The notes beneath the pieces were generated by a model. That model saw only the letters and a program-made list of their open reading frames with translations. It did no database searches and was not told the DNA's origin. A stretch of DNA of 64,000 nt from Chaetoderma sp. LZ-2023a (lineage: Eukaryota; Mollusca; Caudofoveata; Chaetodermatida; Chaetodermatidae). The stretch lies in contig CM067374.1 in NCBI GenBank assembly GCA_034401795.1, positions 137,234,508 to 137,298,507 on the forward strand. The letters are read 5' to 3'. Below, piece after piece: positions 9,185 to 64,000 of this stretch; position 1 is the stretch's first letter; every line of letters begins with the position of its first letter. The position numbers and the translations under genes were made by a program.

Positions 9185-12100
9185 TACCAAGTTAGTCATC
9201 AGCTGTAACTATAACAAAATATACTCAGCTCCCATGTTAGTCATCAGCTGTAACTATAACAAAATATACTCAGCTCCCAAGTTAGTGATCAGCTGTAACT
9301 ATAACAAAATATACTCAGCTCCCAAGTTAGTCATCAGGTGTAACTATAACAAAATATACGCAGCTCCCAATTTAGTCATCAGCTGTAACTATAACACAAT
9401 AAATTAAGCTCCCAAGTTAGTCATCAGCTGTAACTATGACAAAATAAATTAAGCTCCCAAGTTAGTCATCAGCTGTAACTATAACAAAATAAATTAAGCT
9501 CCGAAGTTAGTCATCATCTGTAACTATAACAAAATATACTCAGCTCCCAAGTTAGTCATCGGCTGTAACTATAACAAAATAAATTAAGCTCCCAAGTTAG
9601 TCATCAGCTGTAACTATAACAAAATAAACTCAGCTCCCAAGTTAGTCATCAGCTGTAACTATAACAAAATAAATTAAGCTCCCAAGTTAGTCATCAGCTG
9701 TAACTATGACAAAATAAATTTAGCTCCCAAGTTAGTCATCAGCTGTAACTATAACAAAATATACTCAGCTCCCAAGTTAGTCATCAGCTGTAACTATAAC
9801 AAAATATACTCGGCTACCAAGTTAGTCATCAGCTGTAACTATAACAAAATATACTCAGCTCCCAAGTTAGTCATCAGCTGTAACTATAACAAAATATACT
9901 CAGCTCCCAAGTTAGTGATCAGCTGTAACTATAACAAAATATACTCAGCTCCCAAGTTAGTGATCAGCTGTAACTATACCACAATATACTCAGCTACCAA
10001 GTTAGTGATCAGCTGTAACTATACCACAATATACTCAGCTCCCAAGTTAGTTATCAGCTGTAACAATATGAAAATAAATTCAGCTCCCAAGTTAGTGGGC
10101 AGCTATAACTATAACAAAATATACTCAGCTCCCAAGTTAGTGATCAGCTGTAACTATAACAAAAGATACTCAGCTCCCAAGTTAGTCATCAGCTGTACCT
10201 ATAACAAAATATACTCGGCTACCAAGTTAATCATCAGCTGTAACTATTTCCACTATACTCAGCTACCAAGTTAGTCATCAGCTGTAAACTATAACAAAAT
10301 ATACTCAGCTACCAAGTTAGTGATCAGCTGTAACTATAACAAAATATACTCAGCTCCCAAGTTAGTGATCAGCTGTAACTATAACAAAATATACTCAGCT
10401 CCAAAGTTAGTCATCAGCTGTAACTATAACAAAATATACTCGGCTACCAAGTTAGTCATCAGCTGTAACTATAACAAAATAAACTCAGCTCCCAAGTTAG
10501 TCATCAGCTGTAACTATAACAAAATAAATTAAGCTCTCAAGTTAGTCATCAGCTGTAACTATACCAAATAAATTAAGCTCCCAAGTTAGTCATCAGCTGT
10601 AACTATGACAAAATAAATTAAGCTCCCAAGTTAGTCATCATCTGTAACTATAACAAAATATACTCAGCTCCCAAGTTAGTCATCAGCTGTAACTATAACA
10701 CAATATACTCGGCTACCAAGTTAGTCATCAGCTGTAACTATAACAAAATATACTCAGCTCCCAAGTTAGTCATCAGCTGTAACTATAACAAAATATACTC
10801 GGCTACCAAGTTAGTCATCAGCTGTAACTATAACAAAATATACTCAGCTCCCATGTTAGTCATCAGCTGTAACTATAACAAAATATACTCAGCTCCCAAG
10901 TTAGTGATCAGCTGTAACTATAACAAAATATACTCAGCTCCCAAGTTAGTGATCAGCTGTAACTATAACAAAATATACTCAGCTACCAAGTTAGTGATCA
11001 GCTGTAACTATACCACAATATACTCAGCTCCCAAGTTAGTTATCAGCTGTAACTATAACAAAATATACTCAGCTACCAAGTTAGTGATCAGCTGTAACTA
11101 TAACAAAATATACTCAGCTCCCAAGTTAGTGATCAGCTGTAACTATAACAAAATATACTCAGCTCCAAAGTTAGTCATCAGCTGTAACTATACCAAATAA
11201 ATTAAGCTCCCAAGTTAGTCATCAGCTGTAACTATGACAAAATAAATTAAGCTCCCAAGTTAGTCATCATCTGTAACTATAACAAAATATACTCAGCTCC
11301 CAAGTTAGTCATCAGCTGTAACTATAACAAAATATACTCGGCTACCAAGTTAGTCATCAGCTGTAACTATAACAAAATATACTCAGCTCCCAAGTTAGTC
11401 ATCAGCTGTAACTATAACAAAATATACTCAGCTACCAAGTTAGTGATCAGCTGTAACTATAACAAAATATACTCAGCTCCCAAGTTAGTCATCAGCTGTA
11501 ACTATAACAAAATATAATCAGCTACCAAGTTAGTCATCAGCTGTAAATATAACAAAATATACTCAGGTACCAAGTTAGTGATCAGCTGTAACTATAACAA
11601 AATATACTCAGCTACCAAGTTAGTCATCAGCTGTAACTATAACAAAATATACTCAGCTACCAAGTTAGTCATCAGCTGTAACTATAACAAAATATACTCA
11701 GCTCGCAAGTTAGTCATCAGCTGTAAGTATAACAAAATATACTCAGCTCCCAAGTTAGTCATCAGCTGTAACTATAACAAAATATACTCAGCTACCAAGT
11801 TAGTCATCAGCTGTAACTATAACAAAATATACTCAGCTCCCAAGTTAGTTATCAGCTGGAACTATAACAAAATATACTCAGCTACCAAGTTAGTCATCAG
11901 CTGTAACTATAACAAAATAAATTCAGCTCCCAAGTTAGTCATCAGCTGTAACTATAACAAAATATACTCAGCTCCCAAGTTAGTCATCAGCTGTAACTAT
12001 ATGAAAAAAAATTCAGCTCCCAAGTTAGTGATCAGCTATAACTATAACAAAATATACTCAGCTCCCAAGTTAGTGATCAGCTGTAACTATAACAAAAGAT

Positions 12101-12225
12101 ACTCAGCTCCCAAGTTAGTCATCAGCTGTAACTATAACAAAATATACTTAGCTACCAAGTTAGTCATCAGCTGTAACTATGTCCACTATACTCAGCTCCC
12201 AAGTTAGTCATCGGCTGTAACTATA
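9185..12225 (+). repeat. higher-order duplication, first copy (3.04 kb, partner at 12422-15461)
   Basis: The order of satellite unit subtypes in this block recurs at an offset of 3236-3237 bases with only a handful of differences. One example is an extra A near 10287 that changes the offset by one. Landmarks include the CAGGTGTAAC...ATACGCAGC units at 9335 and 12572 and the CTCGCAAG unit at 11704 and 14940. This points to a recent unequal exchange or amplification. Confidence 0.85.
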
Positions 12226-12421
12226 ACAAAATAAACTCAGCTACCAAGTTAGTTATCAGCTGTAACTATAACAAAATATACTCAGCTCCCAAGTTAGTCA
12301 TCAGCTGTAACTATAACAAAATAAACTCAGCTCCCAAGTTAGTCATCAGCTGTAACTATAACAAAATATACTCGGCTACCAAGTTAGTGATCAGCTGTAA
12401 CTATAACAAAATATACTCAGC

Positions 12422-15400
12422 TACCAAGTTAGTCATCAGCTGTAACTATAACAAAATATACTCAGCTCCCATGTTAGTCATCAGCTGTAACTATAACAAA
12501 ATATACTCAGCTCCCAAGTTAGTGATCAGCTGTAACTATAACAAAATATACTCAGCTCCCAAGTTAGTCATCAGGTGTAACTATAACAAAATATACGCAG
12601 CTCCCAATTTAGTCATCAGCTGTAACTATAACACAATAAATTAAGCTCCCAAGTTAGTCATCAGCTGTAACTATGACAAAATAAATTAAGCTCCCAAGTT
12701 AGTCATCAGCTGTAACTATAACAAAATAAATTAAGCTCCGAAGTTAGTCATCATCTGTAACTATAACAAAATATACTCAGCTCCCAAGTTAGTCATCGGC
12801 TGTAACTATAACAAAATAAATTAAGCTCCCAAGTTAGTCATCAGCTGTAACTATAACAAAATAAACTCAGCTCCCAAGTTAGTCATCAGCTGTAACTATA
12901 ACAAAATAAATTAAGCTCCCAAGTTAGTCATCAGCTGTAACTATGACAAAATAAATTTAGCTCCCAAGTTAGTCATCAGCTGTAACTATAACAAAATATA
13001 CTCAGCTCCCAAGTTAGTCATCAGCTGTAACTATAACAAAATATACTCGGCTACCAAGTTAGTCATCAGCTGTAACTATAACAAAATATACTCAGCTCCC
13101 AAGTTAGTCATCAGCTGTAACTATAACAAAATATACTCAGCTCCCAAGTTAGTGATCAGCTGTAACTATAACAAAATATACTCAGCTCCCAAGTTAGTGA
13201 TCAGCTGTAACTATACCACAATATACTCAGCTACCAAGTTAGTGATCAGCTGTAACTATACCACAATATACTCAGCTCCCAAGTTAGTTATCAGCTGTAA
13301 CAATATGAAAATAAATTCAGCTCCCAAGTTAGTGGTCAGCTATAACTATAACAAAATATACTCAGCTCCCAAGTTAGTGATCAGCTGTAACTATAACAAA
13401 AGATACTCAGCTCCCAAGTTAGTCATCAGCTGTACCTATAACAAAATATACTCGGCTACCAAGTTAATCATCAGCTGTAACTATTTCCACTATACTCAGC
13501 TACCAAGTTAGTCATCAGCTGTAACTATAACAAAATATACTCAGCTACCAAGTTAGTGATCAGCTGTAACTATAACAAAATATACTCAGCTCCCAAGTTA
13601 GTGATCAGCTGTAACTATAACAAAATATACTCAGCTCCAAAGTTAGTCATCAGCTGTAACTATAACAAAATATACTCGGCTACCAAGTTAGTCATCAGCT
13701 GTAACTATAACAAAATAAACTCAGCTCCCAAGTTAGTCATCAGCTGTAACTATAACAAAATAAATTAAGCTCTCAAGTTAGTCATCAGCTGTAACTATAC
13801 CAAATAAATTAAGCTCCCAAGTTAGTCATCAGCTGTAACTATGACAAAATAAATTAAGCTCCCAAGTTAGTCATCATCTGTAACTATAACAAAATATACT
13901 CAGCTCCCAAGTTAGTCATCAGCTGTAACTATAACACAATATACTCGGCTACCAAGTTAGTCATCAGCTGTAACTATAACAAAATATACTCAGCTCCCAA
14001 GTTAGTCATCAGCTGTAACTATAACAAAATATACTCGGCTACCAAGTTAGTCATCAGCTGTAACTATAACAAAATATACTCAGCTCCCATGTTAGTCATC
14101 AGCTGTAACTATAACAAAATATACTCAGCTCCCAAGTTAGTGATCAGCTGTAACTATAACAAAATATACTCAGCTCCCAAGTTAGTGATCAGCTGTAACT
14201 ATAACAAAATATACTCAGCTACCAAGTTAGTGATCAGCTGTAACTATACCACAATATACTCAGCTCCCAAGTTAGTTATCAGCTGTAACTATAACAAAAT
14301 ATACTCAGCTACCAAGTTAGTGATCAGCTGTAACTATAACAAAATATACTCAGCTCCCAAGTTAGTGATCAGCTGTAACTATAACAAAATATACTCAGCT
14401 CCAAAGTTAGTCATCAGCTGTAACTATACCAAATAAATTAAGCTCCGAAGTTAGTCATCAGCTGTAACTATGACAAAATAAATTAAGCTCCCAAGTTAGT
14501 CATCATCTGTAACTATAACAAAATATACTCAGCTCCCAAGTTAGTCATCAGCTGTAACTATAACAAAATATACTCGGCTACCAAGTTAGTCATCAGCTGT
14601 AACTATAACAAAATATACTCAGCTCCCAAGTTAGTCATCAGCTGTAACTATAACAAAATATACTCAGCTACCAAGTTAGTGATCAGCTGTAACTATAACA
14701 AAATATACTCAGCTCCCAAGTTAGTCATCAGCTGTAACTATAACAAAATATAATCAGCTACCAAGTTAGTCATCAGCTGTAAATATAACAAAATATACTC
14801 AGGTACCAAGTTAGTGATCAGCTGTAACTATAACAAAATATACTCAGCTACCAAGTTAGTCATCAGCTGTAACTATAACAAAATATACTCAGCTACCAAG
14901 TTAGTCATCAGCTGTAACTATAACAAAATATACTCAGCTCGCAAGTTAGTCATCAGCTGTAAGTATAACAAAATATACTCAGCTCCCAAGTTAGTCATCA
15001 GCTGTAACTATAACAAAATATACTCAGCTACCAAGTTAGTCATCAGCTGTAACTATAACAAAATATACTCAGCTCCCAAGTTAGTTATCAGCTGGAACTA
15101 TAACAAAATATACTCAGCTACCAAGTTAGTCATCAGCTGTAACTATAACAAAATAAATTCAGCTCCCAAGTTAGTCATCAGCTGTAACTATAACAAAATA
15201 TACTCAGCTCCCAAGTTAGTCATCAGCTGTAACTATATGAAAAAAAATTCAGCTCCCAAGTTAGTGATCAGCTATAACTATAACAAAATATACTCAGCTC
15301 CCAAGTTAGTGATCAGCTGTAACTATAACAAAAGATACTCAGCTCCCAAGTTAGTCATCAGCTGTAACTATAACAAAATATACTCAGCTACCAAGTTAGT

Positions 15401-15461
15401 CATCAGCTGTAACTATGTCCACTATACTCAGCTCCCAAGTTAGTCATCGGCTGTAACTATA
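12422..15461 (+). repeat. higher-order duplication, second copy (partner at 9185-12225)
   Basis: This is the near-identical partner of the preceding block. After about 15461 it differs by loss of a unit and then stays similar for a few more units. A shorter related block of about 1.6 kb, starting near 7700, matches the first part of both copies at an offset of 1618 (CAGGTGTAAC at 7717, 9335 and 12572). Confidence 0.85.
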
Positions 15462-18031
15462 ACAAAATATACTCAGCTCCCAAGTTAGTCATCAGCTGTA
15501 ACTATAACAAAATAAACTCAGCTCCCAAGTTAGTCATCAGCTGTAACTATAACAAAATATACTCGGCTACCAAGTTAGTGATCAGCTGTAACTATAACAA
15601 AATATACTCAGCTACCAAGTTAGTCATCAGCTGTAACTATTTCCACAATATACTCAGCTACCAAGTTAGTCATCAGGTGTAACTATAACAAAATATACGC
15701 AGCTCCCAAGTTAGTCATCAGCTGTAACTATAACAAAATAAATTAAGCTCCCAAGTTAGTCATCATCTGTAACTATAACAAAATATACTCAGCTCCCAAG
15801 TTAGTCATCGGCTGTAACTATAACAAAATAAATTAAGCTCCCAAGTTAGTCATCAGCTGTAAGTATAACAAAATAAACTCAGCTCCCAAGTTAGTCATCA
15901 GCTGTAACTATAACAAAATAAATTAAGCTCTCAAGTTAGTCATCAGCTGTAACTATACCAAATAAATTAAGCTCCCAAGTTAGTCATCAGCTGTAACTAT
16001 GACAAAATAAATTAAGCTCCCAAGTTAGTCATCATCTGTAACTAACACAAAATATACTCAGCTCCCAAGTTAGTCATCAGCTGTAACTATAACAAAATAT
16101 ACTCGGCTACCAAGTTAGTCATCAGCTGTAACTATAACAAAATATACTCAGCTCCCAAGTTAGTCATCAGCTGTAACTATAACAAAATATACTCGGCTAC
16201 CAAGTTAGTCATCAGCTGTAACTATAACAAAATATACTCAGCTCCCAAGTTAGTCATCAGCTGTAACTATAACAAAATATACTCAGCTCCCAAGTTAGTG
16301 ATCAGCTGTAACTATAACAAAATATACTCAGCTCCCAAGTTAGTGATCAGCTGTAACTATAACAAAATATACTCAGCTACCAAGTTAGTGATCAGCTGTA
16401 ACTATACCACAATATACTCAGCTCCCAAGTTAGTTATCAGCTGTAACTATAAGAAAATATACTCAGCTCCCAAGTTAGTCATCAGCTGTAACTATATGAA
16501 AATAAATTCAGCTCCCAAGTTAGTGATCAGCTATAACTATAACAAAATATACTCAGCTCCCACGTTAGTGATCAGCTGTAACTATAACACAAGATACTCA
16601 GCTCCCAAGTTAGTCATCAGCTGTAACTATAACAAAATATACTCAGCTACCAAGTTAGTCATCAGCTGAAACTATGTCCACTATACTCAGCTCCCAAGTT
16701 AGTCATCGGCTGTAACTATAACAAAATATACTCAGCTACCAAGTTAGTCATCAGCTGTAACTATAACAAAATAAACTCAGCTCCCAAGTTAGTCATCAGC
16801 TGTAACTATAACAAAATATACTCGGCTACCAAGTTAGTGATCAGCTGTAACTATAACAAAATATACTCAGCTACCAAGTTAGTCATCTGCTGTAACTATG
16901 TCCACAATATACTCAGCTACCAAGTTAGTCATCAGGTGTAACTATAACAAAATATACTCAGCTCCCAAGTTAGTGATCAGCTGTAACTATAACAAAATAT
17001 ACTCAGCTACCAAGTTAGTGATCAGCTGTAACTATACCACAATATACTCAGCTCCCAAGTTAGTTATCAGCTGTAACTATAACAAAATATACTCAGCTCC
17101 CAAGTTAGTCATCAGCTGTAACTATATGAAAATAAATTCAGCTCCCAAGTTAGTGATCAGCTATAACTATAACAAAATATACTCAGCTCCCAAGTTAGTG
17201 ATCATCTGTAACTATAACACAAGATACTCAGCTCCCAAGTTAGTCATCAGCTGTAACTATAACAAAATATACTCAGCTACCAAGTTAGTCATCAGCTGAA
17301 ACTATGTCCACTATACTCAGCTCCCAAGTTAGTCATCGGCTGTAACTATAACAAAATATACTCAGCTACCAAGTTAGTCATCAGCTGTAACTATAACAAA
17401 ATAAACTCAGCTCCCAAGTTAGTCATCAGCTGTAACTATAATAAAATATACTCGGCTACCAAGTTAGTGATCAGCTGTAACTATAACAAAATATACTCAG
17501 CTACCAAGTTAGTCATCTGCTGTAACTATTTCCACAATATACTCAGCTACCAAGTTAGTCATCAGGTGTAACTATAACAAAATATACGCAGCTCCCAAGT
17601 TAGTCATCAGCTGTAACTATAACAAAATAAATTAAGCTCCCAAGTTAGTCATCATCTGTAACTATAACAAAATATACTCAGCTCCCAAGTTAGTCATCAG
17701 CTGTAACTATAACAAAATAAACTCAGCTCCCAAGTTAGTCATCAGCTGTAACTATAACAAAATAAATTAAGCTCTCAAGTTAGTCATCAGCTGTAACTAT
17801 GACAAAATAAATTTAGCTCCCAAGATAGTCATCATCTGTAACTATAACAAAATATACTCAGCTCCCAAGTTAGTCATCAGCTGTAACTATAACAAAATAT
17901 ACTCAGCTACCAAGTTAGTGATCAGCTGTAACTATACCACAATATACTCAGCTCCCAAGTTAGTTATCAGCTGTAACTATAACAAAATATACTCAGCTAC
18001 CAAGTTAGTCATCAGCTGTAACTATAACAAA

Positions 18032-30503: not shown

Positions 30504-32164
30504 TACACCTGTGCAAAAGTTAAGCACCACCCTATTTTTACGCACATACGAGGGTATATTCATGTGCTATGAAGAAAGCAATAGCATAAACATTTATGTA
30601 CCCATCCATCTTAGTGCAAGAGGTAATAATGCAACTAGAGGAATGCTGATTATGATGGTGGGGTAACACTGTATGTTTTTGTTTGAACTTGAAAACGAGG
30701 CCTGAATATGGTTACGTTGACACAACTGACAACTACTGCCCTACAGTTGACACACGTGGCTAGATTGTCATTAATGGTGTCTGAAAACGAAGTTTAACAT
30801 CTGTGCACGAGTTTGAGTCTGTCATTATTAATACCGGGTATATCCACCTTGTGCCTGGATGACGGCCTGGACACGACGTCTCATGCTGGTCACCAACCGA
30901 CTGATACGCCATTGTGGTATTCGTTGCCATTCAAGATGGAGTGCGTCTGTTAATTCCTGTAGGTTCTGCACAGGAGGATCCCTCCTTCTCACCATGTTTC
31001 CCAGAATGTCCCAGATATGCTCAATAGGGTTCATGTCAGGGCTCCTTGCTGGCCATGGTAGGGTTTCGATGGCATTCTGGCGGAGGTATTCATGCACAGC
31101 TCTGGCACGATGTGGTCTGGCGTTGTCATCCATGAATATAGGGTGGGTTCCAGGTGCATGATTTACAAAATGAGGGACCACAACTCTATCCAGTATGGAA
31201 TCTTGATATCTTTGTCCATTTAGTGTTCCAGGTACAGTCAACAGATCCAGCTTACAATCAAATGAGATGCACCCCCATATCATAACGGAACCTCCACCAA
31301 ATGGAACTTCTTCCATGATGTTACGTTGGTCGTACGCCGTGCGTCTGGACCTCCATACACAAGTTCGACCATCTGTGGCATGAAGCAGGAACCGACTTTC
31401 ATCGGACCAGTGTACCCGTCTCCGGGATCTCATGTTCCAGTGTCTTCTTTCGTTGCACCACCTCAGACGCTCCTCTTTGTGGTGTGCAGTGAGGAGAGGA
31501 CGTCTGACAGGTCTCCTAGCTTTCATGCCAGCAGCATACAGTCTCCTTTTGACGGTAGACATTGACACTCTATTGCGCGTTTCCCATTGCTGGCTGAGCA
31601 CTCTGCTGTTGGTGAATGGAGATCTCCTAACAAGGCGTACTAGGGCTCGATCATCACGGGCAGTAGTCTTCTCCGGTCTTCCAGATCTAGGCCTGTCCTT
31701 CACCTCGTTAGTTTGCCCATTTTTTGCAATCAAACGACTGATTACAGTATGGTTAATGTTCAGCTGTCTGCCAATCTCTCTGCATGACATACCAGTGGTA
31801 TGCATGCCTATGATTTGCCATTTCACACGATCACTTAACCTTCATCTTGCCATAGCGGTTCACAATCAAGAGCTAATTCTCTCTGTACAAATAAACCACG
31901 GTCATGAACACAAAATTCCTAATCTTGTCGCCTAAATCTGTATGTAATGTTCTACACCTCAAACTGGACTTTTACATAACTGAACACGTGTGCTGTTTCC
32001 CGCCACGCACGGACATCAAGCGGCGTGAAGTCATGCATGCATGTGCATTTCGTACTTGGAATTATGTCAGCTAACGCGGGGACAAAAAGTATGGCAGCCT
32101 AGTTGTACCATCATGTTTCTACGTTCTATTGTTTTTGCTGGTGCTTAACTTTTGCACAGGTGTA
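30504..32164 (-). mobile_element. Tc1-like DNA transposon, copy 3, outside the satellite
   Basis: This 1661-bp element has the same inverted ends as copies 1 and 2 and a clean TA duplication (30502-30503 and 32165-32166). It lies in intergenic DNA rather than satellite and is in the opposite orientation. It shows that the family is dispersed and is not amplified only by satellite duplication. Confidence 0.95.
30828..31853 (-). pseudogene. Tc1 transposase, nearly intact, early stop
   Basis: From the conserved ATG (31851-31853) the reading is Met-Ala-Arg then TGA at 31842-31844, where other copies have CGA, a typical CpG transition. After that the frame is open for the remaining 337 codons, with WSDES, MDDNARPH and NPIEHIWD all present and a full-length MVRRRDPP. 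A downstream start would lose only the extreme N terminus before the helix-turn-helix. One substitution changes the HGQT segment to NGQT. Confidence 0.9.
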
Positions 32165-34489: not shown

Positions 34490-35497
34490 CGAGTACAGTT
34501 TTAGTACAGTGCAGCCCGTGAGACCACATTGCCAATACCAGACACAAGTACACTTTTAGTACAGTGCAGCCCGTGAGACCACATGTGCCAATAACAGACA
34601 CAAGTACACTTTTAGTACAGTGCAGCCTGTGAGACCACATGTGCCAATACCAGACACAAGTACACTTTTAGCACAGTGCAGCCCGTGAGACCACATGTGC
34701 CAATACCAGACACAAGTACACTTTTAGTACAGTGCAGCCCGTGAGACCACATGTGCCAATACCAGAGACAAGTACACTTTTAGTACAGTGCAGCCTGTGA
34801 GACCACATGTGCCAATACCAGACACAAGTACACTTTTAGTACAGTGCAGCCCGTGAGATCACATGTGCCAATACCAGACACAAGTACACTTTTAGTACAG
34901 TGCAGCCTGTGAGACCACATGTGCCAATACCAGACACAAGTACACTTTTAGTACAGTGCAGCCCGTGAGATCACATGTGCCAATACCAGACACAAGTACA
35001 CATTTAGTACAGTGCAGGCCGTGAGACCACATGTGCCAATACCAGACACAAGTACACTTTTAGCACAGTGCAGCCCATGAGACCACATGTGCCAATACCA
35101 GACACAAGTACACTTTTAGTACAGTGCAGCCCGTGAGACCATGTGCCAATACCAGACACAAGTACACTTTTAGTACAGTGCAGCCCGTGAGACCACATGT
35201 GCCAATACCAGACACAAGTACACTTTTAGCACAGTGCAGCCAGTGAGACCACATGTGCCAATACCAGACACAAGTAGACTTTTAGTACAGTGCAGCCCGT
35301 GAGACCACATGTGCCAATACCAGACACAAGTACACTTTTAGCACAGTGCAGCCAGTGAGACCACATGTGCCAATACCAGACACAAGTACACTTTTAGTAC
35401 AGTGCAGCCCGTGAGACCACATGTGCCAATACCAGACACAAGTACACTTTTAGTACAGTGCAGCCCGTGAGACCACATGTGCCAATACCAGACACAA
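34490..35497 (+). repeat. 56-bp minisatellite, about 18 copies
   Basis: The unit contains GTGCCAATACCAGACACAAG, then TACACTTTTAGTACAGTGCAG and CCCGTGAGACCACAT. The period is 56 with few substitutions (GTAC/GCAC; CCCGTG/CCAGTG/CCTGTG) and one short unit near 35140. It follows the unrecognised open frame by about 100 bases. Confidence 0.95.
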
Positions 35498-40377: not shown

Positions 40378-40481
40378 CTAGCCAAACCAGTGGTCAGATA
40401 TACAGTCGTGTGTCCACTTGTCTCCGCAGAGCCAGCACCAGTCAAAGTGACACCGCGAACATGTCATGTGCATACAGCCAC
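40378..40481 (-). CDS. PRKN: parkin last coding exon equivalent to human exon 12 (RING2, C terminus)
   Basis: The acceptor GTTTATAG is followed by GT GGC TGT, which completes the split Gly codon from the 58-kb exon. The peptide is GGCMHMTCSRCHFDWCWLC, then GDKWTHDCISDHWFG and TAG. It holds the catalytic Cys (C431 equivalent, in GGCMHM), the neighbouring His, and all remaining RING2 zinc ligands ending C-x3-H. The HWF C-terminal anchor is typical of parkin. The third and fourth zinc-ligand cysteines are separated by only two residues (C-S-R-C), against four in human parkin and most RBR ligases. The long intron before this exon explains why it is easily missed. Confidence 0.93.
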
Positions 40482-42525: not shown

Positions 42526-43560
42526 TTATCTTTTCAAAATCGACAAGGCGAGAGGATTAGAGGTGTCACGGAGATAATGGTCTGTAAAACTAGACTCACA
42601 GTGCCACTGAGCCACCGACATAATATCATCCACATGGACCCCATTAAATAGGGCCGTGGATGTCACTACGCCGCGGACACTGTGAGCCTTGGCCACGTCA
42701 ACCTGCTTCCCGGTGGCGGATTTATGACAAAACTGAATGCATTCTACAATCCACCTGGAAATGGTGTCCTTAGAAGCCCTGCCATGGGGTTCAATATATG
42801 ACAACCATAACGCCGACTGGTCGGTGCGCCACTCCGATGTACGTTGTTTGTACCGGAGAAGCGCCCGGACGGGACACCATGCTTTAGAATTAGGATCATA
42901 TCTAGTTAAAGCAGGCAAAACAATAGGTTGACCTGGATATTTCAACGACTGATTCTTAGCCAAGAAATTAATCCTAGGTAGCAGCTTAAGGCCTTCCCCT
43001 GAAACCACAAAACGGTCATCCTCGGCTGATAAGGCATGAATTTCACTTCTACGCCTAGCCGAGGCCGCAGCAATTAAAAACACAGTCTTCAGTGTTAATA
43101 GTTTCATAGAAATGGAACTAAGTGGTTCAAACGGCTTATCACCTAGTACTTGAAGCACTAGCGATAAACTCCAAGACGGAATCACAGGGGGATTCCTTGG
43201 TCTTAGATTGCCCATGCCTTTAATTAATACATTTAATGTATTTACTTCATCACTTCCCCTCTTAGCCAAGCAAGGAATAACAGACATTAAAGCTGACTTA
43301 TAACCAGCAATAGAGTTAGGCTTGAGGCTATAGGCATCATACAGGTGACAGAGGAAATCAGCTACTACCTGAATAGATGAATCCATTGGATCAATACATC
43401 TTTTTGAGCACCATTCTGCAAATCTGTTGATTTTATAATTATATGCTCTGGAGGTTGACCCCCTCCTGGCTTTGGCCATAAACATGGCTGCTTGCTCAGA
43501 AAAGCCCTCCTTAATTCTAGATTCCTTGACAACATCCACGCAGTCAATCTGAACATTGAC
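42526..43560 (-). CDS. DIRS-like copy 1: tyrosine recombinase region
   Basis: The translation shows an N-terminal core-binding part (SRIKEGFSEQAAMFMAKARR ... FLCHLYDAYSLKPNS) and the catalytic part: box A Arg in AASARRRSEIHAL, HSVRG (His-x-x-Arg) and the nucleophile Tyr in DHYLRD. This recombinase replaces the integrase of other retroelements and inserts a circular copy without target duplication. It overlaps the end of the RT/RNase H region, as is usual in DIRS elements. Confidence 0.85.
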   Translation of the reverse strand, partial: VNVQIDCVDVVKESRIKEGFSEQAAMFMAKARRGSTSRAYNYKINRFAEWCSKRCIDPMDSSIQVVADFLCHLYDAYSLKPNSIAGYKSALMSVIPCLAKRGSDEVNTLNVLIKGMGNLRPRNPPVIPSWSLSLVLQVLGDKPFEPLSSISMKLLTLKTVFLIAAASARRRSEIHALSAEDDRFVVSGEGLKLLPRINFLAKNQSLKYPGQPIVLPALTRYDPNSKAWCPVRALLRYKQRTSEWRTDQSALWLSYIEPHGRASKDTISRWIVECIQFCHKSATGKQVDVAKAHSVRGVVTSTALFNGVHVDDIMSVAQWHCESSFTDHYLRDTSNPLALSILKR

Positions 43561-45195
43561 GGATTGTTGTGAAGGGCCTTGCCCTGGAAGATAATATCGT
43601 CCATCAGAGGCAGAGGAACCGGATTGCAGACCAGAAGGTCCAGCAGATCCGTATACCATGATCGGCTTGGCCAATCCGGGGCGATCAAAAGCACTTGGCA
43701 TTCCTCTTGTCTGATTTTCTGAAGAATTTTTGGAATCAGGATTGCTGGAGGGAATGCGTATGCATACATTCTCCCCCAGCTGATAGCTAACGCATCTGTT
43801 GCGAAAGCGCTTGGATCCGGAATCGGAGAGACGTACGTCGTCATCTTCGCATTCCTCTTCGTTGCGAACAAATCGATGTTGGGTTTCCCCCAATGGTCGA
43901 ACAGACGATCCGCCACACATTGATTTAGTTGCCATTCCGTGGGTAAAACACTCATCCTTCGGCTCAATGAGTCTGCTAGCAGATTTAACCTTCCCGGAAT
44001 ATGAACTGCTTTCAAGGTAATCTGGTGATCCAGGCACCAACAAAGCAGTCTCCATGTCATCATACAGAGACTGGGCGACTTCGTTCCGCCCTGGCGGTTT
44101 ATGTAAGTCACAACTGTTGAGTTGTCTGAACGAATAAGAACAATCTTGCCCTGAACTTTCTGTAAGAAATGTTCCAGGCCCAGGACTACTGCTCTTAGCT
44201 CCAGTAGATTTATATGTTCCTTTGACTGTTCCGGATTCCACAGCCCTGATATCGTGGATTCTTCCAGGCAAGCCCCCCAGCCCTCCATCGATGCATCTGT
44301 ATACACAGTCACCTGAGGGTGGGGAGGGGTTAGCATAACCCCCACAAAGAGATTCTCTGTGTCCAACCACCATTGCAGGTGATGAATCAGAGGCACCAAC
44401 ACTGACACGTTCGAGTCCAGCGAACCTGTACTCTGGGTCCATTGTGTCATGAGAAATAACTGGATCGGCCGCCTGCGTAAGGCGGCCTGAGGAATGACTG
44501 GTTCCAATGAAACCATCAACCCCAGCATTCTCAAGTAAACCCGTGCCAGGACATGATGACTGTCGCACACTGACTGAATTAATGAGATGAGTTTCTGAAC
44601 TCTCTCCTGAGTAGGAAAAACATATCCTGTCTCTAGATCGAAGAACATCCACAGGTAAACAAACTTCTGGGATGGAGTCAGCTCTGATTTTGGGAAATTG
44701 ATCATCCAGCCCAAGTCTGTGAGAGTCTTTAAAACAATCTCCAGACTGGCCGATAAACTTTCCTGGGTGTGCGCTTTCAACAGCCAGTCGTCTATGTACG
44801 TGTGGACTGCTATGCTTCTCCTGCGGAGGTATGCGGTGATCGCAAGAACCACACGGGTGAAAACCCGAGGAGCCGTGGAAATTCCGATGGGTAACACCCT
44901 TAATTCCCACTGTCTGCCCTGGAATGCAAATCTCAGGAAGCGACGGAAACTCCTGTGTATGGGGATGTGGAAATAAGCGTCCTTCAAATCTATCGACGCT
45001 GTCCACATTCCCCTCTCTAACCCCGCCAACACCGAGCGCACAGTCAATGTTCAATGGCTTGAGGTTGAGAATTGGTCTCCACCCTCCGGTGTTTTTTGTT
45101 ACTAAGAACAGGGTTGAATAGAAGCCCGGACACCTCTGTGCCGGCTGAATAGCTCCTTTTTGTATGAGGGAATTTATTTCCTCCTCGATAGACAA
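43365..45195 (-). CDS. DIRS-like copy 1: reverse transcriptase and RNase H region
   Basis: RT motifs are visible: IQKGAIQPAQ, GGWRPILNLKPLN, TASIDLKDAYFHIPIH and the catalytic TYIDDWLL. RNase H follows with VTVYTDASMEGWGACL, LLELRAVVLGL and IRSDNSTVV. After it comes the DIRS-typical segment with NIDLFATKRNAKMTTYVS. Fossil element part; details of decay are not given. Confidence 0.88.
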
Positions 45196-45797
45196 CCTTT
45201 GCTCTGGATCTCTCTGGATCTCTCGGATTCGGAGTCCAGATCGGCACTAGAGACAGTCACGATGGCGGGCCTGTCATCCAATCGGGATGATACCCGACTG
45301 AAAGCCATCGCAAGACTAAACGGTCCTGAGTTAACCGTTCCCACTCTTGCATGTGGTCGGCTAGCCGGCCTCCCACCGGTCCACCTAGGGATAGAGGTGG
45401 ACATAAGGAGTGCAAGAGCGGCACTGTCTCCTTTGCCAGAAACACTGGCGCGGTTCTCACCGCGGTAACCATCCCATCAGGAACGATTACCCCGCCCAGA
45501 TCCTCGCGCGCCACGACCAGCACCGCGCGCACCTCGGTGCGCGGGCGGCTGCCTGGCTGACTGCGCCTGAGGAGCCTGCGCCCCCCTCGCTGCTGGCCGA
45601 ATCTGACCTGGCCACCACCACCTCGAGCCTGCAGGGGACGATACGCAGGGGGTGCGGCGCGAACGTTAGCACGACGAAGCACCTCAAACTGCTCGCGCAG
45701 CGCCCTCTGGTTATTGACCAGAGTAACCGTCTCCTGGAGGTGCCTACATCCCTCACCTTCAAAGAGACCAGGACCTGTCATAGGCGTACGGAGTAGC

Positions 45798-48587: not shown

Positions 48588-51500
48588 GAACAAAATCATG
48601 CATTTCTTTTTTCATGAGAGAGTAGTTATACTTTCCTCCCTAACACTATGATATTTCCTAAATATCGACGTTCACTCAATAACCCCAGATTAAAAAAGAT
48701 AGGTGCCCTTATTGGGCAGGTAGACAGGTGACAGCCGGATGCCAGCCCCAACCTTGCGCATGCGCAGACTGTCACTGCCTCAGCTTGACTATTGGCCAAC
48801 ACCGAGCCTCTGGGGGGCGGAGAGGCAGGGTCCGTGTTAGGGAGATAAGTATAACTACTCTCTCGTGAAAAAAGAAATCCCTGATTTCGTTTATTTCACT
48901 TCAAGAGATATACTTACCTCCTTAACACTCTATGATATTGCCAGAATTTGTAAGAGAATTTGGGGGAGGGAGGCGAGGTCAAAAGACCAGCTCATCCCAT
49001 GTGCGTTTTTGCGCATGAAGCACTAACATCTGAAATTGTGTGATACACACAATCTGGCAATGATTTGAACATCGGATAACACAACTGATGGCGAGTAATG
49101 ACCGCATGTCAAATGAACCACATAATACACAGGTACTGTTACATTCTTGTTAAATAAGGATAATAAATCGTGACAATAAATTATGTAACAACAAAAAGGC
49201 AGTACTGACCTTATGCATGAAAGCTGTATCCATTCAGTCCACATCAGTGAAGTAAAAAATGATACACGAATATGCAGTTGTTTCCACAATTAGTGTATTG
49301 TCTGAAGACAGCAAGTGCAACTTATCTACAATATATACACCTGATCATCTTTTGAATATCAATAAGTCAAGAGGATTAGTGGTGTCATTGAGATAATGGT
49401 CCGTAAAACTTGACTCACAGTGCTACTGAGCTAACGACATAATGTCATCCACGAGTACCCCGTTAAACAAGGCGGTGGATGCCACTATGCCACGGACATT
49501 GTGAGCCTTGGCTAAGTCAACTTGTTTACCAGTGGCGGCTTTGTGGCAAAATTGAATAGATTCCACAATCCACCTAGATATACTGTCTTTTGATGCCCTG
49601 CCATGGGGTTCAATATAAGACAACCATAACGAGGATGCCGCCATTCCTGTGTAAGTTGTTTGTACCTGCTTAATGCGCGGACTGGACACCATGCTTTTGA
49701 GTTAGGATCAAACCTAGTCAAAGCTGGTAAAATAATTGGTTGACCTGGATATTTCAAAGTTTATTTATCCTAGGTAGAAGCCTAAGACCTTCCCCTGTAA
49801 CCACATAATGGTCTGCCTCGGTGGACATAGCATGAATCTCGCTTCTCCATCTTGCAGAAGTCGCAGCAATTAGAAATACAGCTTTAAGTGTCAACATTTT
49901 CACTTAGTTGTTCAAAGGGTCTATCTGCTAGCACTTGAAGTACTAAAGATAAATTCCAAGATGGAATCGCTTGAGGATTTCTCGGTCTTAGCTTACCCAT
50001 GCCTTTTATTAAAGTGTTCAATGAACAGACTTCGTCACTTCCCCTACCAGCCAAGCAAGGAATAACTGACATTAAAGCTAACTTGTAGCCAGCAATAGAG
50101 GCTTGACTCGATAGGCATCATACATGTGACAGAGGAAATCAGCTACTACCTGAATAAATGCATCCATTGGATTAGCACCATTCTGCAAATCTATTGATTT
50201 TATAGTTATATGCTCTGGAGGTTGAACCCTTCTGGCTTTTGCCATAAACATGGCTATTTGCTCAGAAAAGCCCTCCTTAATTCTAGATTCCTTGACAACA
50301 TCCACGCAGTCAATCTGAACATTGACGGATTGTTGTGAAGGGCCTTGCCCTGTAAGATAATATTGTCCATCCGAGGCAGAGGAACCGGATTGCAGACCAG
50401 AAGGTCCAGCAGATCCGTATACCATGATCGGTGTGGCCAATTTGGGGCGATCAGAAGCACTTGGCACTCCTCCTGTCTGATTTTCTGAAGAATTTTTGGA
50501 ATCAGGATTGCTGGAAGGAATGCGTATGCATACATTCCCACCCAGCTGATAGCTAGTGTATCTGTTGCGATAGCGCTTGGATCTGGAATCGGAGAGACAT
50601 ACGTCGTCATCTTCGCATTCTTCTTCGTTGCGAACAAATCTATGTTGGGTTTCCCCCAATGACTGAACAGACGGTCCCCACACATTGATTCAGTTGCCAT
50701 TCCGTAGGTAAAACACTCATCCTTCGGCTCAATGAGTCTGCTAACAGATTTAACCTTCCCGGAATATGAACTGCTTTCAAGGTAATCCTGTGATCCAGGC
50801 ACCAGCAAAGCAGCTTCCATGTCATCATACAGAGACTGGGCGACTTCGTTCCTCCCTGGCGGTTTATGTAAGTCACTACTGTTGAGTTATCTGATCGAAT
50901 TAGAACACTCTTGCCCTGAACTTTCTGTAAGAAATGTTCCAGGCCCAGAACTACTGCTCGTAATTCCAGTAGATTTATATGTTCTACTGACTGTTCCAGA
51001 TTCCAAAGCCCTGATATCGTGGATTCTTCCAGGCAAGCTCTCCACCCCTCCATCGATGCATCTGTATACATCGTTACCTGAGGGTGAGGAGGGGTTAGCA
51101 TCACACCCCCCCCCCCCCCAGGAGATTCTCTGTCTTCATCCACCATTGAAGGTGGTGAATTAGGCTCCAGCACTGGCACATTTGAGTCCAGAGAACCTGT
51201 ACTCGGCGTCCATTGCGTCATGGAAAATAACTGTATCGACCGCCTGCGTAAGGCCGCCTGAGGAATGACTGGTTCCAGAAAAACCATCAATCCTAGCATT
51301 CTCAAGCAAACTAGTGCGAGGACATGACGACTGTTGCACACTGACTGTATTACTGAGATGAGTATCTGAACTCTCTCCTGAGTAGGACAAACATATCCTA
51401 TCTCCAAATCGAAGAACATTCCCAGGTAGACAAACTTCTGGGATGGAGTCAGCTCTGATTTTTGAAAATTGATTATCCAGCCTAAATCTGTGAGAGTTTT

Positions 51501-54500
51501 CAAAACTATCTCCAGATTTGCCGATAAATTTCTCGGTTGTGTGCTTTTAACAGACAGTCGTCTATGTACGTGTGGACTGCTATGCTTCTCCTGTGGAGGT
51601 ATGCTGTTATCGCAAGAACCACCCTGGTGAAGGAAGACCTGAGGAGCCGTAGATATTCTGAAGGGTAACACCCTGAATTCCCACTGTCTGCCCTGGAATG
51701 CAAATCTCAGGAAGCGACGGAAACTCCTCGCTATAGGAATGTGGAAATAAGCATCCTTCAAATCTATTGAAGCTGTCCACATCTCCCTCTCCAACCCTGC
51801 CAACACCGATTTCACTGTCTCCATTTTGAAACTGGGTGTATCTATGAACTTGTTCAATAGCTTGAGGTTGAGAATTGGTCTCCACCCTCCAGTGCTTTTT
51901 GTCACTAGGAACACGGTTGAATAGAAGCCCGGACAATCTTGTGCCGGTTGAATTGCTCCTTTTTGTATGAGGGAATTTATCTCTTCCTCTATACACAACC
52001 GCTGATCCGGATCCCTTGGAATTTGAGTCCAGATTGGCATCAGAGACAGTCGCGATGGAGGGCCTGTAATACAGTCGGGATCATACCTAAACGGTCCTGA
52101 GTTAACCGTTCCCACTCTTGCTTGTGGTGGACCAATCGGTCCCCCAGTGGACCACCTAGGAAGAGAGGTAGATGTAAGGAGTGCAAGAGTGGCACTGTCT
52201 CCTTGGCCAGAAGCACCGGAGTGGTTCTCACCGTGATAACCGACCTATCAGGCACGATTACCACGACCAGATCGTCGCGCGCCACGACCAGCGCACCTCA
52301 GTGCGCGGGCGGCTTCCTGCGCTGGAGGAGCCTGCGCCCCCTCACTGCTGGCCGAATCGCACGTGGCCGACGCTGCATTGGTGGCTGGCCTCTGACCTGG
52401 CCACCGCCACCTCGAGCCTGCAGGGGATGATACGCAGGGGGAGCTGTGCGAACGCGCTCTCTGCGGAGAACCTTAAACTGCTCGCGCAAAGCCCCCTGGT
52501 TATTGACCAGAGTGACCATCTCCTGGAGATGCTTGCATCCCTCACCTCCAAAGAGACCAGGACCTGCCTACACAGGTATACCCATACGCAGCAGCCCATT
52601 ATACAGGTCCTGAGATGGGCACAAGTTGTCAAGTGCAAACGTGCGCCTCGCCCGGACATTCCTGGTCACAGCCCGGGTCAAACAATCCAGAGCCAGGTTG
52701 ATTCCATCATGACTGGCTCTCTGGACCGTTACTGGGCTAGGCTGACGCGATGCCGATGCTGTTACTACCCCCTGTAACAGCTGGGAGACATGAGAAGGCG
52801 CTGCAATAGATGCTCTCCCACTCTCCTCTGCAACGCGGTATTGGCTGAACGCAAAGCGTTCGAGCAGTGCTCCTGTGTCAGACCGGGAGCCTGGCCGCGT
52901 GTCCTCGCCTAAAGCCGCGCGGTCATCCACGCTCGGCTTAGGCACCACGCCGTATTTCTGATACTCATCAGATACGACGCGGCAACGCCTCGCCACCTCG
53001 CGAGGGACCTTCGCGAGACGTCCATGCGCCTTGATGGATGTCTCCGCCGCCGTGAACATATCAACAATATGTTCAGCCAGCGGCAGAGATGGCAATGTGC
53101 TCACAGCCGATCTACCTGCCAACCACGGGCGGTGATCCCGCTGGCCGACCGGCTGTTCCACAGGCAGGTCTGGCCTGACGCTTATAAACCACTGACAAGC
53201 GTCCGACCAGTCCTCCTCTGTGGCTACCTGCGAGAGCTCTACAAGATGAGGGCCTTCGTCTTCCTTCTGAGCGTTCGCAGGTATGCTTGAGGCTGGATAA
53301 CCTGACACCCCTGGCAAGCCAGAGAAAGCATGCGGGCCCGAAAGAGCAGGCATGCTAAACTGGCTGGCTTGACCAGGAGCAGGCGCCGTGGTATTGCGCG
53401 GGGCGCTTAGCGCCATACTACGGCCCCGGCAAGCAGCTGTTACACTCTCTGCAAGGCGAGGTATGTGGTACATCTGGGCGTCAGATCCGACCCGGGCCAC
53501 CTTCTGCGCCGTGAACCATACTCCTGCGTGAGTAGAACCATGGATAATGTCGCCTGTATTCCCCGCGAGGGGTGCACAGACGTCAATGTCCATGGTCACG
53601 GCATCAGAAGATCCCAGCAGATAATCCTCTTCATCCTGGCCAGAAAGATTAGACTCCGGGTCAGCGAAGAATGCTAACCCGGACTGGCCAGGAAAGGTAC
53701 CATAGGAGGCACTGGTCCCTGCGGCGTGCGGAACCAGGCTCCAGCGACAACTGTCCATGGACCACCGGCGCAGCAAGCCTGCTGCCAATGACCTGGATCG
53801 TCCCCTCTAATGGGGCCACCTCCGAATCTTCGAAAATTTGTAACACCCTAGAGAAACCAGATTCAGAGGCGGGGATTATCTGCTCCGAAGCAGATGAAGA
53901 GAGAAACAAAAGATTTGGTCCAGGAAGCATGCCACGGAGCAACTCTGGAACCAAATCTTTGATTGTCCTCTTCATCTCTCCCAACATCTCAACACGGAAG
54001 GTTTCCATATCCACAGAGGATGAGGCCTTCCTCTTACCCTTCTTACCAGGTACCTCTCTCTTAGACCTTCTCTCCTCCTCAGCAATCTTCTCCTTTGCCT
54101 GTAACGACAAAAAGTCAGACATTAACTCACCCCCCCCCCCCCCACTGTTTACATATGTCGCATTTAAGCAACCGTCCACAGGGACTGCACTGGAAACATA
54201 AGTGCGGGGCGAATCGGTCCTTCAAAAAGCGACCACATGAGGGACACCCAGGTCTCTGAAACACGCCAGAGGATGAAGACAATGAGTATTTTAGTTAATA
54301 GAATTAGTAACTCAAAACCAAAATAAAAGGAGAGGAAAAGTGGTTATACAGACCACCTACAAAGATAATAAAACAGCGTTGGGCAAAACTTTAAATGTTA
54401 ATAAAGTGCAAGGCTGATTATGACGTCATAACTTCAAAAAATAAGAAGTTAAATCGATCTGAAACAAACATCCAGGTGTAAGGACGAATTGTATTCATAT

Positions 54501-58152: not shown

Positions 58153-58288
58153 CATCTCTTTCTGTGGCGACATGGCATTGAGGACACGGTAATGTGGTCT
58201 CACTAATCACCCTCCTAGTCACATCATCAGCAGCAACAGTATGTTCCCAGCGAGAATCATTGGCCCTGTCCATATTCACATGAACAGC
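58153..58288 (-). CDS. PRKN: parkin exon equivalent to human exon 11 (tether/REP and start of RING2)
   Basis: The acceptor is TTTTTTTCAG followed by GCT GTT CAT; the donor is GATG|GTCAGT and leaves phase 1, the phase I recall for human exon 11. The exon is 136 bp (45 codons plus one base). It encodes AVHVNMDRANDSRWEHT, then a linker, then PCPQCHVATERD and the first base of a Gly codon. RWE aligns with the REP tryptophan (human W403) that covers the E2 site in inactive parkin. PCPQC supplies the first two RING2 ligands (C418 and C421 equivalents). The stretch between the Trp and PCPQC is about six residues longer than in human parkin. Confidence 0.95.
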
Positions 58289-61042: not shown

Positions 61043-61123
61043 ATTTGCCGGTAGAGCGGCTGTTAATGGCACACCGCATGCACCTTCATGGTAGTCCTCC
61101 AGACACTGACGACAGAACACATG
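61043..61123 (-). CDS. PRKN: parkin exon equivalent to human exon 10 (IBR, second half)
   Basis: The acceptor TTTTCGCAG is followed by CAT GTG TTC, and the donor is AAT|GTAAGA, so the 81-bp exon is phase 0 at both ends. It encodes 27 residues starting HVFCRQCLEDYHEGAC. These contain the last four IBR zinc ligands in the pattern C-x2-C-x4-H-x3-C, as in human FCRECKEAYHEGEC. The human exon encodes 28 residues, so the length is close. The tail GVPLTAALPAN begins the linker (tether) to RING2. The frame joins directly to GMGCG of the preceding exon if the first donor is used. Confidence 0.95.
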
Positions 61124-62692
61124 CTGCGAAAACAACACAGTCAACACACTAATGAGCAAACTGATGAATTAACGCTTTGAAATAATCTTAAGAAATACTT
61201 ATCTATTTGCAGGTGAAGAGAAAACTACTTTTGAAAATTTGCCAATGGAACTTACTGTAACTGCCATATAAGCACTACTGACCTGACCAAGTCATAGTGA
61301 TAGACAAATGGTTTACATCACATAAATATGCCCCTGGTTACAATCAATGTGTATATCAAAAGACTTGGTTGAACTAAATGGCCATTGAATATAAACTTTA
61401 TGCTAACAGTCCAGTGTGAGTTTTCTAAAATATTCTTCAGTTGGTCTCCAAGTTGATTTCAACTATTAAGCTTTTCACGACGAAGCCGGCCAAAACCGGC
61501 CTCTGCAGTGGTCTTCGTAAATGTACATTTGCAGGCTAAAAGAAGACTTTTTGAAAATTTACCACAGGAATGACTGGCTTGATAACCGAGCCAGTCATTT
61601 CAGTGGAAAGTTTTCAACTAGATGGACTGATTCCCGCGTGTCAAGCCCTTTAGGTTTCCCACATATCACACATCATGTGTGGCATGATTTCTTAAAATAG
61701 TATAGCCCCTTGACAAATCAAATCTCTATTTTTCATATGTAAAAGTATGGAAGACTTATAATTCATTTTAATTTTGCTGCAAACTGAAGGCAATATAATA
61801 AATCTGTAAAGTTTCATTGGGATCGAATAAGCCCTTACTAAATTAAAAGCCGATTGAATAACGTTAACATTCTTCTAATTCCGGGATTAAGCAGGATATA
61901 AATCACACAAAAATAAACTAAGTCCAAACTCGGTAAAAATAAGGAAAGAATTATGAAATCTTATTTATTGGCATGTAGACTAAATGCACTGATGTTATAA
62001 AACAAAACTGTGAAGATTTAATGAGATTGGATAAGTTCTTCATTGATTAAATGTCAACTGAAAAACTTTAACTTTCATCTAATTTTTGGCACCGGAAAAG
62101 TATGAAAAAAAATTGAAAATCACAATCATTATGATGGAGACCGATGCAATGATAGCGCAGAACAAATTTGTAACGTTTTATTGGCATCGGATAAGTCCTT
62201 GATCAATTAAATGTCCATTGAATACCATTAACATTTACCCACTTCTTGCTGCAAAATAAGCTATGTCCAGACCCAGTAACAATCATTTCAATTGTGATGG
62301 CGACTAGATGCAATGATGGATTGCATCAAATCTGTAAAGTTTTATTAACATCAGATAAGTCCTTGATCAATTAAATGTCCATTAAAAAACTTTGACCTAA
62401 TTCTTGTCACGCCGGTCATCATTTGGATCAATTGCTATGTCGAGATCCTCCTCTTAGTTATGGGCTTGACAAAAATAGTCTTATCTTGTCCTACAAATGT
62501 GCATTAAATAACTAAATACTTTAATTTTTTGAACAAAATTTAGTCATTAAAGCGCTAAAAGGTAGAATATATTAGATGATTAGATTTAGTAACGTGATAG
62601 TCTTGGACAGTAGGATATGTTACGTGTGAGAAACATTGTCGATTCTAATTATTATTGGCCACTTTCGATGATTAAAACTAGTGAAGAAACAT
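61124..62692. other. parkin intron with family-B foldbacks and a 160-bp degenerate repeat
   Basis: A lone family-B arm lies at about 61200-61255 and a full family-B foldback at about 61517-61620. From about 61740 to 62420 there is a degenerate tandem repeat with ATAAGTCCTTGATCAATTAA words at about 62031, 62191 and 62355 (period about 160). No exon is seen. Confidence 0.6.
61517..61620. repeat. foldback element, family B
   Basis: GTACATTTGCAGGCTAAAAG ... ATTTACCACAGGAATGACTGG on the left and CCAGTCATTTCAGTGG ... GTTTTCAAC on the right, centred on CTTGATAACCGAG. Upstream is the family's head region, with GAAGCCGGCCAAAACCGGCC. Confidence 0.75.
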
Positions 62693-63740
62693 TTGTATAA
62701 GCCATTACCCCACATCCCATTCCTGCTGTGACATTTGTATAAGCCATTACCCCACATCCCGTTCCTGCTGTGACATTTGTATAATCCATTACCCCACATC
62801 CCATTCCTGCTGTGACATTTGTATAAGCCATTACCCCACATCCCATTCCTGCTGTGACATTTGTATAAGCCATTACCCCACATCCCGTTCCTGCTGTGAC
62901 ATTTGTATAAGCCATTACCCCACATCCCGTTCCTGCTGTGACATTTGCATAAGCCATTACCCCACATCCCATTCCTGCTGTGACATTTGTATAAGCCATT
63001 ACCCCACATCCCGTTCCTGCTGTGACATTTATATAAGCCATTACCCGACATCCCATTCCTGCTGTGACATTTGTATAAGCCATTACCCCACATCCCGTTC
63101 CTGCTGTGACATTTGTATAAGCCATTACCCCACATCCCGTTCCTGCTGTGACATTTGTATAAGCCATTACCCCACATCCCGTTCCTGCTGTGACATTTGT
63201 ATAAGCCATTACCCCACATCCCGTTCCTGCTGTGACATTTATGTAAGCCATTACCCCACATCCCGTTCCTGCTGTGACATTTATATAAGCCATTACCCCA
63301 CATCCCATTCCTGCTGTGACATTTGTATAAGCCATTACCCCACATCCCGTTCCTGCTGTGACATTTGTATAAGCCATTACCCCACATCCCATTCCTGCTG
63401 TGACATTTGTATAAGCCATTACCCCACATCCCGTTCCTGCTGTGACATTTATATAAGCCATTACCCCACATCCCGTTCCTGCTGTGACATTTGTATAAGC
63501 CATTACCCCACATCCCGTTCCTGCTGTGACATTTATATAAGCCATTACCCCACATCCCGTTCCTGCTGTGACATTTGTATACGCCATTACCCCACATCCC
63601 GTTCCTGCTGTGACATTTGTATACGCCATTACCCCACATCCCGTTCCTGCTGTGACATTTGTATAAGCCATTACCCCACATCCCGTTCCTGCTGTGACAT
63701 TTGTATAAGCCATTACCCCACATCCCATTCCTGCTGTGAC
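62693..63740 (-). repeat. 42-bp minisatellite made of the parkin exon/intron junction, 25 copies
   Basis: On the minus strand each unit starts GTCACAGCAGGAAYGGGATG, continues TGGGGTAATGGC and ends TTATACAAAT. In the right-most unit the first 24 bases are the 3' end of the parkin exon and the next 18 are the start of the intron. All following units repeat both parts. Twenty-five units are counted from the open translation. Variation is mostly single transitions (ACG/ATG; ACA/ATA). The GT of the splice donor appears kept in every unit, including one with a changed base just before it (near 63044). Two of the three minus-strand frames are open through the array, because 42 is divisible by three and the unit has a stop in only one frame. 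Confidence 0.95.
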
Positions 63741-63866
63741 GAGGCATGTCACCTTACGATCATCTGTCTCTGGAAGAATGCCCGCTCCACATCCCCGCCC
63801 TGGACACAGCACACCACCATTTTGCAATACAAACTCTTCAGCACCAAACCTCTGATAGCGGTTATA
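63717..63866 (-). CDS. PRKN: parkin exon equivalent to human exon 9 (IBR, first half)
   Basis: The acceptor is TTTACAG followed by TAT AAC CGC. The translation begins [20 protein letters not shown] and continues with [16 protein letters not shown] and GMGCG. It matches human parkin YNRYQQYGAEE...GLGCG residue for residue in layout. The exon is exactly 50 codons (150 bp), as I recall for human exon 9. It carries four IBR zinc ligands (equivalents of C332, C337, C352 and C360). The donor is GGG|GTAATG in phase 0. The last 24 bases of this exon are the source of the 42-bp minisatellite that follows in the intron, so alternative donors exist downstream. The reading frame does not close at the donor and runs on through the repeat array to 62652. 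Confidence 0.95.
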
Positions 63867-64000
63867 CTGTAAACAAAGACATACAATACATTAAACATTT
63901 CATAGAGAAATTTGGTCAAGAAAGTTACTCAAAATATTTGCTTATTGAATGTCCATTTGCAGGCTAAGAGGGGACTATTTTTACAAATTTACCAATGAAA
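63867..64000. other. parkin upstream intron, partial
   Basis: Intron sequence upstream (in gene sense) of the 63.8-kb exon. A family-B foldback arm (TGTCCATTTGCAGGCTAAGA) starts at about 63948 and runs off the window. Confidence 0.6.

Follow-up and report, generated by a model that had tools for sequence, protein, structure and literature searches.

A 42-bp minisatellite over a parkin exon/intron junction presents 25 in-frame copies of a splice donor in Chaetoderma

Introduction

Where does an exon end when its own end, splice donor included, has been repeated many times over? The question is raised by the 3′ part of a parkin gene in the window, a 64,000-bp stretch of contig CM067374.1 from the genome of Chaetoderma sp. 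LZ-2023a, in which a minisatellite unit takes in coding sequence, the donor and the beginning of the following intron. The locus would offer a natural setting in which to see how a splice site is selected when as many as 25 near-identical donors are on offer. With later donors in use, the parkin IBR domain would change directly with repeat length; with the first donor alone in use, the locus would reveal how firmly the selection is set by exon context or distance. The array would also be a non-human, frame-neutral counterpart of the repeats known from the human genes ABCA7 and IFI6. Here we describe the gene, the array and its reading frame, compare the array with the known cases, and weigh which of its donors is used.

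Results and Discussion

The parkin gene around the array

The exon at the array had been assigned to parkin in a preliminary description, and comparison with structures bears this out. With an E limit of 0.001, the 50-residue peptide of this exon, which we take to be the equivalent of human exon 9 by numbering, had matches to 26 distinct PDB sequences (best E 4.3e-19), of which 24 carry the name parkin. Twenty-two of the 26 matches covered the peptide in full, and no gaps occurred in the three alignments printed. The remaining coding sequence was located by tblastn using the human parkin C-terminus as the query, with matches at 61117-61055, 58291-58151 and 40482-40384 and the next best at E 0.055 (exon boundaries are given in Table 1). 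AG precedes all four exons, GT follows the first three, and the phases join in frame. The 156 residues encoded by the four joined exons scored above the Pfam cut-offs for both IBR (60.2 bits, two stretches) and IBR_2 (64.5 bits), and comprise an IBR with conserved Cys/His spacing followed by the linker and RING2. Judged from the DNA, the gene looks intact at its 3′ end. The first parkin exons, encoding UBL, RING0 and RING1, would fall past the end of the window, which lies 134 bp upstream of the 150-bp exon. The linker exon (58153-58288, minus strand) is 6 residues longer than the human sequence, the difference lying in the stretch SRWEHTVAADDVTRR.

Table 1. Coordinates of the parkin exons and the minisatellite in the window (a slash marks an exon/intron boundary)
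Feature	Position	Strand	Size and content	Signals or basis
Parkin exon	63717..63866	-	150 bp, 50 residues, N-terminal IBR part	Acceptor tttacag, donor GGG/gtaatg
Coding exon end forming the first part of the unit	63717..63740	-	24 bp, VTAGMGCG	Cysteine aligns with a conserved IBR cysteine
Minisatellite	62691..63740	-	42-bp unit, 25 units	TRF and unit-by-unit cutting
Stretch gained by the exon if the 25th donor is used	62709..63716	-	1008 bp, 24 x 14 residues, no stop
Next parkin exon	61043..61123	-	81 bp, phase 0, remaining IBR (HVFCRQCLEDYHEGAC...)	Acceptor ttcgcag, donor AAT/gtaaga
Third parkin exon	58153..58288	-	136 bp, linker and RING2 start	Acceptor tttttcag, donor ATG/gtcagt
Last coding exon	40378..40481	-	RING2 to stop, GGCMHMTC...DHWFG-stop	tblastn and surrounding sequence

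Structure and origin of the array

The array was called by TRF at 62689-63740 with a period of 42, 25.0 copies, 97% matches and 0% indels. When the sequence was cut from 63740 downwards, 25 whole 42-bp units were obtained without a single indel, the last ending at 62691; the right end is therefore as first described, while the left end moves out by two bases from the 62693 given earlier. The 42 bases next after the last unit mismatch the consensus at 28 positions, and the edges of the array are clean at both flanks. With 25 head-to-tail units of a length within the range of about 10-100 bp, the array is a minisatellite in the usual sense.

The proposed unit of 24 bp of exon and 18 bp of intron starting GTAATGG was upheld. 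Unit 0 (63740-63699), the right-most, joins the final 24 bp of the parkin exon to the 18 bp with which the intron opens, confirming the earlier view that it holds the real exon end and that the array is built from this exon/intron junction; units 1-24 are extra intronic copies of both parts. The GT of the donor is kept in every unit (24 read GGG/GTAATG and one, at 63044, CGG/GTAATG), so that the same donor-like site recurs in 25 of 25 units, the first being the real exon end and the extra copies, put at about 24 before, numbering exactly 24. A 38-bp pattern spanning the junction, searched with up to 3 mismatches, gave 24 matches in the window, all of them within the array, compared with a mean of 0.00 matches across 100 dinucleotide shuffles.

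Twelve of the 25 units are identical to the consensus, seven columns are variable, and the resulting nine unit types follow one another in irregular order. This pattern bears on the possibility that the array, or the number of its units, arose in assembly: tandem arrays are in general often mis-sized, but nine irregularly ordered types without indels are unlike the product of a looped assembly error, and both array ends are clean. We regard an artefact as exceedingly improbable.

The array would have begun when a 42-bp segment lying by chance across the parkin exon end and the start of the intron was duplicated in tandem, and it would then have grown and been homogenised by slippage or unequal exchange. 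At unit position 14 the outermost units, 0 and 24, carry ATG, compared with 17 ACG and 6 ATG among the inner 23 units, which would fit the amplification of a derived form in the interior of the array. GT starts both the unit and the unique intron directly after the last unit, and may represent 2 bp of microhomology at the break. Where the array begins, the exon contains GTGAC-ATGCCTC-GTCAC (63736-63752, minus strand), an inverted repeat with 5-bp arms, the second of which coincides with the beginning of the unit; it is possibly a slippage aid, or possibly chance.

Tandem repeats account for 19302 of the 64000 bases of the window (30%), or 13% without the one 12.6-kb array. In a window this rich in repeats, no particular cause has to be invoked for a minisatellite meeting an exon end. 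The parkin gene itself is poor in repeats besides the 42-bp array, which contributes 1052 of the 1218 tandem repeat bases in its 23488-bp span. One of seven splice junction ends lies inside an array, and the parkin coding end lies outside arrays.

Reading frame and unit variation

Because the period of 42 is divisible by three and no stop falls within the unit in the parkin frame, all 25 donors are phase 0 and the minus-strand parkin frame remains open from the exon through the array, with a stop shortly past it. The frame arithmetic put forward earlier, with 14 residues added per unit, was thus right. Two other frames, one on each strand, are likewise open across the array; the openness is therefore a property of the unit and does not speak for coding. 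We estimate that an array would be frame-neutral by chance in about 1 in 4 cases, since 1/3 of periods are multiples of three and the six intron codons have a chance of about 3/4 of containing no stop. It may be that arrays without this property were removed by selection, and the present array would have been tolerated because its period is a multiple of three and its unit is free of stops in the parkin frame.

The cysteine codon of the VTAGMGCG segment, presumably that of a zinc ligand, is kept in 24 of the 24 extra copies. Each copy accordingly carries the GCG cysteine expected from the preliminary description, whose repeat pattern with a single T/M difference was too narrow: T/I/A, A/D and G/R variation is also found. 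Read as coding sequence, five of the seven variable columns change an amino acid and two are silent, compared with an expectation in the absence of selection of 69-70% changing, 26-29% silent and 2-4% stop. In this weak test, with few sites and little power, the unit variation shows no sign of coding constraint.

Two further candidate roles for the repeat were rejected. As a structured RNA, three units gave a z of +0.80, with 160 of 200 shuffles folding at least as well, and no gathering-level Rfam match was found in the window. As a known coding repeat, the read-through (62655-63866) gave only two Pfam matches, both below threshold, to Galaxin_repeat (19.9 bits, cut-off 28, E 7e-4) and BetaGal_ABD2 (13.9 bits, cut-off 23), which we take as chance similarity of a short repeat. 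The 42-bp unit had 0 matches in viral contigs. A pattern for the exon peptide matched 78 stretches in prokaryote contigs and 2 in viral contigs, none of them a relative; these collections hold prokaryotes and viruses only, and absence from them is uninformative on related animals.

Relation to known donor-bearing repeats

Arrays of this kind are already known in human genes. The minisatellite of IFI6 (also 6-16 or G1P3), reportedly described by Turri et al. in 1995, has a unit of 12 bp, compared with 42 bp in the parkin array. Like the parkin array it offers multiple splice donors, though in another gene; splicing also starts from two of the repeat units further downstream, so that three mRNA species arise (PMC4526556). 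The work of Turri et al. is likewise cited in PMC2572611, PMC2915984 and PMC3618361.

A very close precedent is the VNTR in intron 18 of human ABCA7, with 25-bp units, 23.7 of them in the reference and about 12 to 427 across alleles (PMC5954066). As in parkin, the units lie directly after the exon, the first GT is the real donor and later units repeat it. The ABCA7 repeat differs in that it begins at the GT of the exon 18 donor without exon sequence, its retention breaks the frame and its length varies between people, whereas the parkin array is frame-neutral, includes 24 bp of exon in each 42-bp unit and is known here from one sequence. The measured ABCA7 isoforms include retention of one unit; unit retention does not increase with VNTR length, unlike the skipping of exon 19 (PMC5954066).

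Two more distant parallels involve exon-intron boundaries. In human segmental-duplication genes, internal tandem repeats at such boundaries (on average 30-bp units x 4) are likewise of minisatellite type and alter splicing, with the stress of the report on novel introns (PMC2812944). In a potato RdRp gene a boundary-crossing tandem duplication copied splice signals and created a new intron, differing from the parkin array in being a single duplication over an exon start (PMC4974935).

The earlier statement that no such case was known was confined to parkin, and the literature excerpts retrieved contained none that joined parkin, a minisatellite and a splice donor; as a kind, the arrangement has the precedents of ABCA7 (PMC5954066) and IFI6 (PMC4526556). 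Excerpts of PMC12783039, on earthworm metallothionein minisatellites, and of PMC11506328 contained no donor-bearing array, and PMC4309913 deals instead with donors in a sodium channel exon. New aspects are the affected gene, the lineage in which the array occurs and the fact that a zinc-ligand segment is duplicated in frame.

Choice among the donors

Residues 1-70 of the joined exons at 63.7 kb and 61.1 kb were gapless in the five alignments printed, so that the IBR formed with the first donor has the same length as that of human parkin over the matched 70 residues. This alignment suggests that the first donor is probably the normal one and the main one used. Of three peptides tried against the Pfam IBR model, the one without an extra unit scored best (37.4 bits); the score fell modestly, to 32.4 bits with one inserted unit and 31.0 with two, and in both cases exceeded the cut-off of 24.3.

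The predicted place of an insert is between the cysteine of GMGCG and HVFC. Because GCG closes every unit, the distance to HVFC would be unchanged after the final copy. The extra residues would form a loop ahead of the duplicated cysteine, and an insert in the parkin IBR may in this way be less destructive than usual. The PDB sequences 6djx, 6djw, 2m48 and 5caw matched residues 1-67, 1-66, 10-71 and 1-70 with 4, 4, 4 and 6 fewer residues than the query, respectively, and in 6djw, 6djx and 5caw the length difference starts only past residue 42 or 43, near the segment copied by the repeat. The stretch just before or after GCG thus differs in length among parkins, and an insert near it may be tolerated.

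These properties are relevant to the possibility that the array is a working device, with several donors in regular use, a series of parkin lengths with n x 14 residues in the IBR, and an array length differing between individuals. The intact state of all 25 donors and of the frame, the spacing kept by the GCG unit end, the neighbouring stretch that is 4-6 residues shorter in four PDB sequences and so not fixed in length, and the one-unit retention measured in the ABCA7 VNTR (PMC5954066) would all suit such a device. However, recent homogenisation alone would leave donors and frame intact, the unit variation bears no sign of coding constraint and the IBR score drops with insertion, and we consider a working device unlikely. 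The fuller proposal that a length-variable minisatellite produces graded parkin isoforms, whose n x 14-residue inserts each carry a spare IBR cysteine, with repeat length tuning a mitophagy ligase, appears distinctly unlikely.

Donor strength was scored with an approximate matrix of human frequencies rather than one derived from this mollusc lineage. The array donors, at 3.97 bits, were weaker than those of the two exons that follow (7.29 and 6.41 bits). On the same matrix, a GT five bases upstream of the array donor scored 4.15 in 23 of the 24 extra units, and the remaining intron (61130-62690) contains six GT sites scoring at least 3.97. A weak donor repeated in line could act in the RNA, either because U1 sites in series aid exon definition or because long arrays hinder splicing and lead to exon skipping. 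The low donor score on the human matrix is in keeping with such a role, as is the increase of ABCA7 exon 19 skipping with VNTR length (PMC5954066), but the matrix is approximate and human, there is no selection signal, and the rest of the intron offers six other sites at least as strong; an RNA role therefore seems very unlikely. Splicing out of single units was also considered, since each unit contains CACAGCAG/G, and was rejected on two grounds, a shortest possible intron of 28 bp and an acceptor that differs in phase.

We think it likely that the array is a neutral minisatellite expansion over the parkin exon/intron junction, with the first donor as the main one and the later ones as passive decoys. 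Several results argue for a neutral expansion: the indel-free structure of 25 x 42 bp that starts inside the exon and ends in the intron, the downstream exons, splice sites and stop codon that look intact, the gapless alignment to human parkin and best Pfam IBR score obtained with the first donor, the ratio of changing to silent columns near the expectation without selection, and the fold of three units, no better than that of shuffles. Against the neutral, first-donor view stand the modest size of the Pfam drop, the length variation among PDB sequences and the upstream GT that outscores the donor (4.15 > 3.97); the collision rate, moreover, rests on one case (1/7 junction ends), and seven columns give little power to detect selection. 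Under neutral expansion the first donor keeps its original exon context and would probably be the one mainly used. The 24 downstream donors would be passive decoys for which, by analogy with ABCA7 and IFI6, low-level use is possible, most often of the nearest, leading to in-frame isoforms with +14n residues.

Neighbouring elements

An inverted repeat with 52-nt arms, 77% complementary, lies on both sides of the exon and array (62471-62522 / 63931-63982). Base pairing between the arms in the transcript could promote circular or skipped forms of the 150-bp exon; alternatively, the arms could be two copies of a dispersed repeat. Downstream of the array, the intron contains degenerate dispersed repeats of about 105-116 nt (61360-62412). 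The last parkin intron, 17.7 kb long, holds a reverse transcriptase frame (50643-52244, minus strand; RVT_1, 43.8 bits) and a 906-aa open frame (42529-45246, minus strand) with no Pfam match at E up to 0.001.

We suspect that GGGAGATAACTC-like repeats in the window are a mark of a mollusc or a relative; a literature search with the GGGAGATAACTC string led to papers on shrimp, human and rice. A 45-bp satellite occupies 5391-18031, 1-1098 and 2744-3736, with about 281, 24 and 22 copies, respectively, and a Tc1-type transposase reading frame (4040-5065, plus strand) lies between the second and the longest of these arrays. In oyster, satellite-like arrays are carried by Helentrons (PMC7492417). 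A second transposase frame, of Tc1/mariner type (30831-31841, minus strand), has HTH_Tnp_Tc3_2 and DDE_3 matches above the Pfam cut-offs, and a 56-bp minisatellite of 18 copies with 95% matches is found at 34492-35497.
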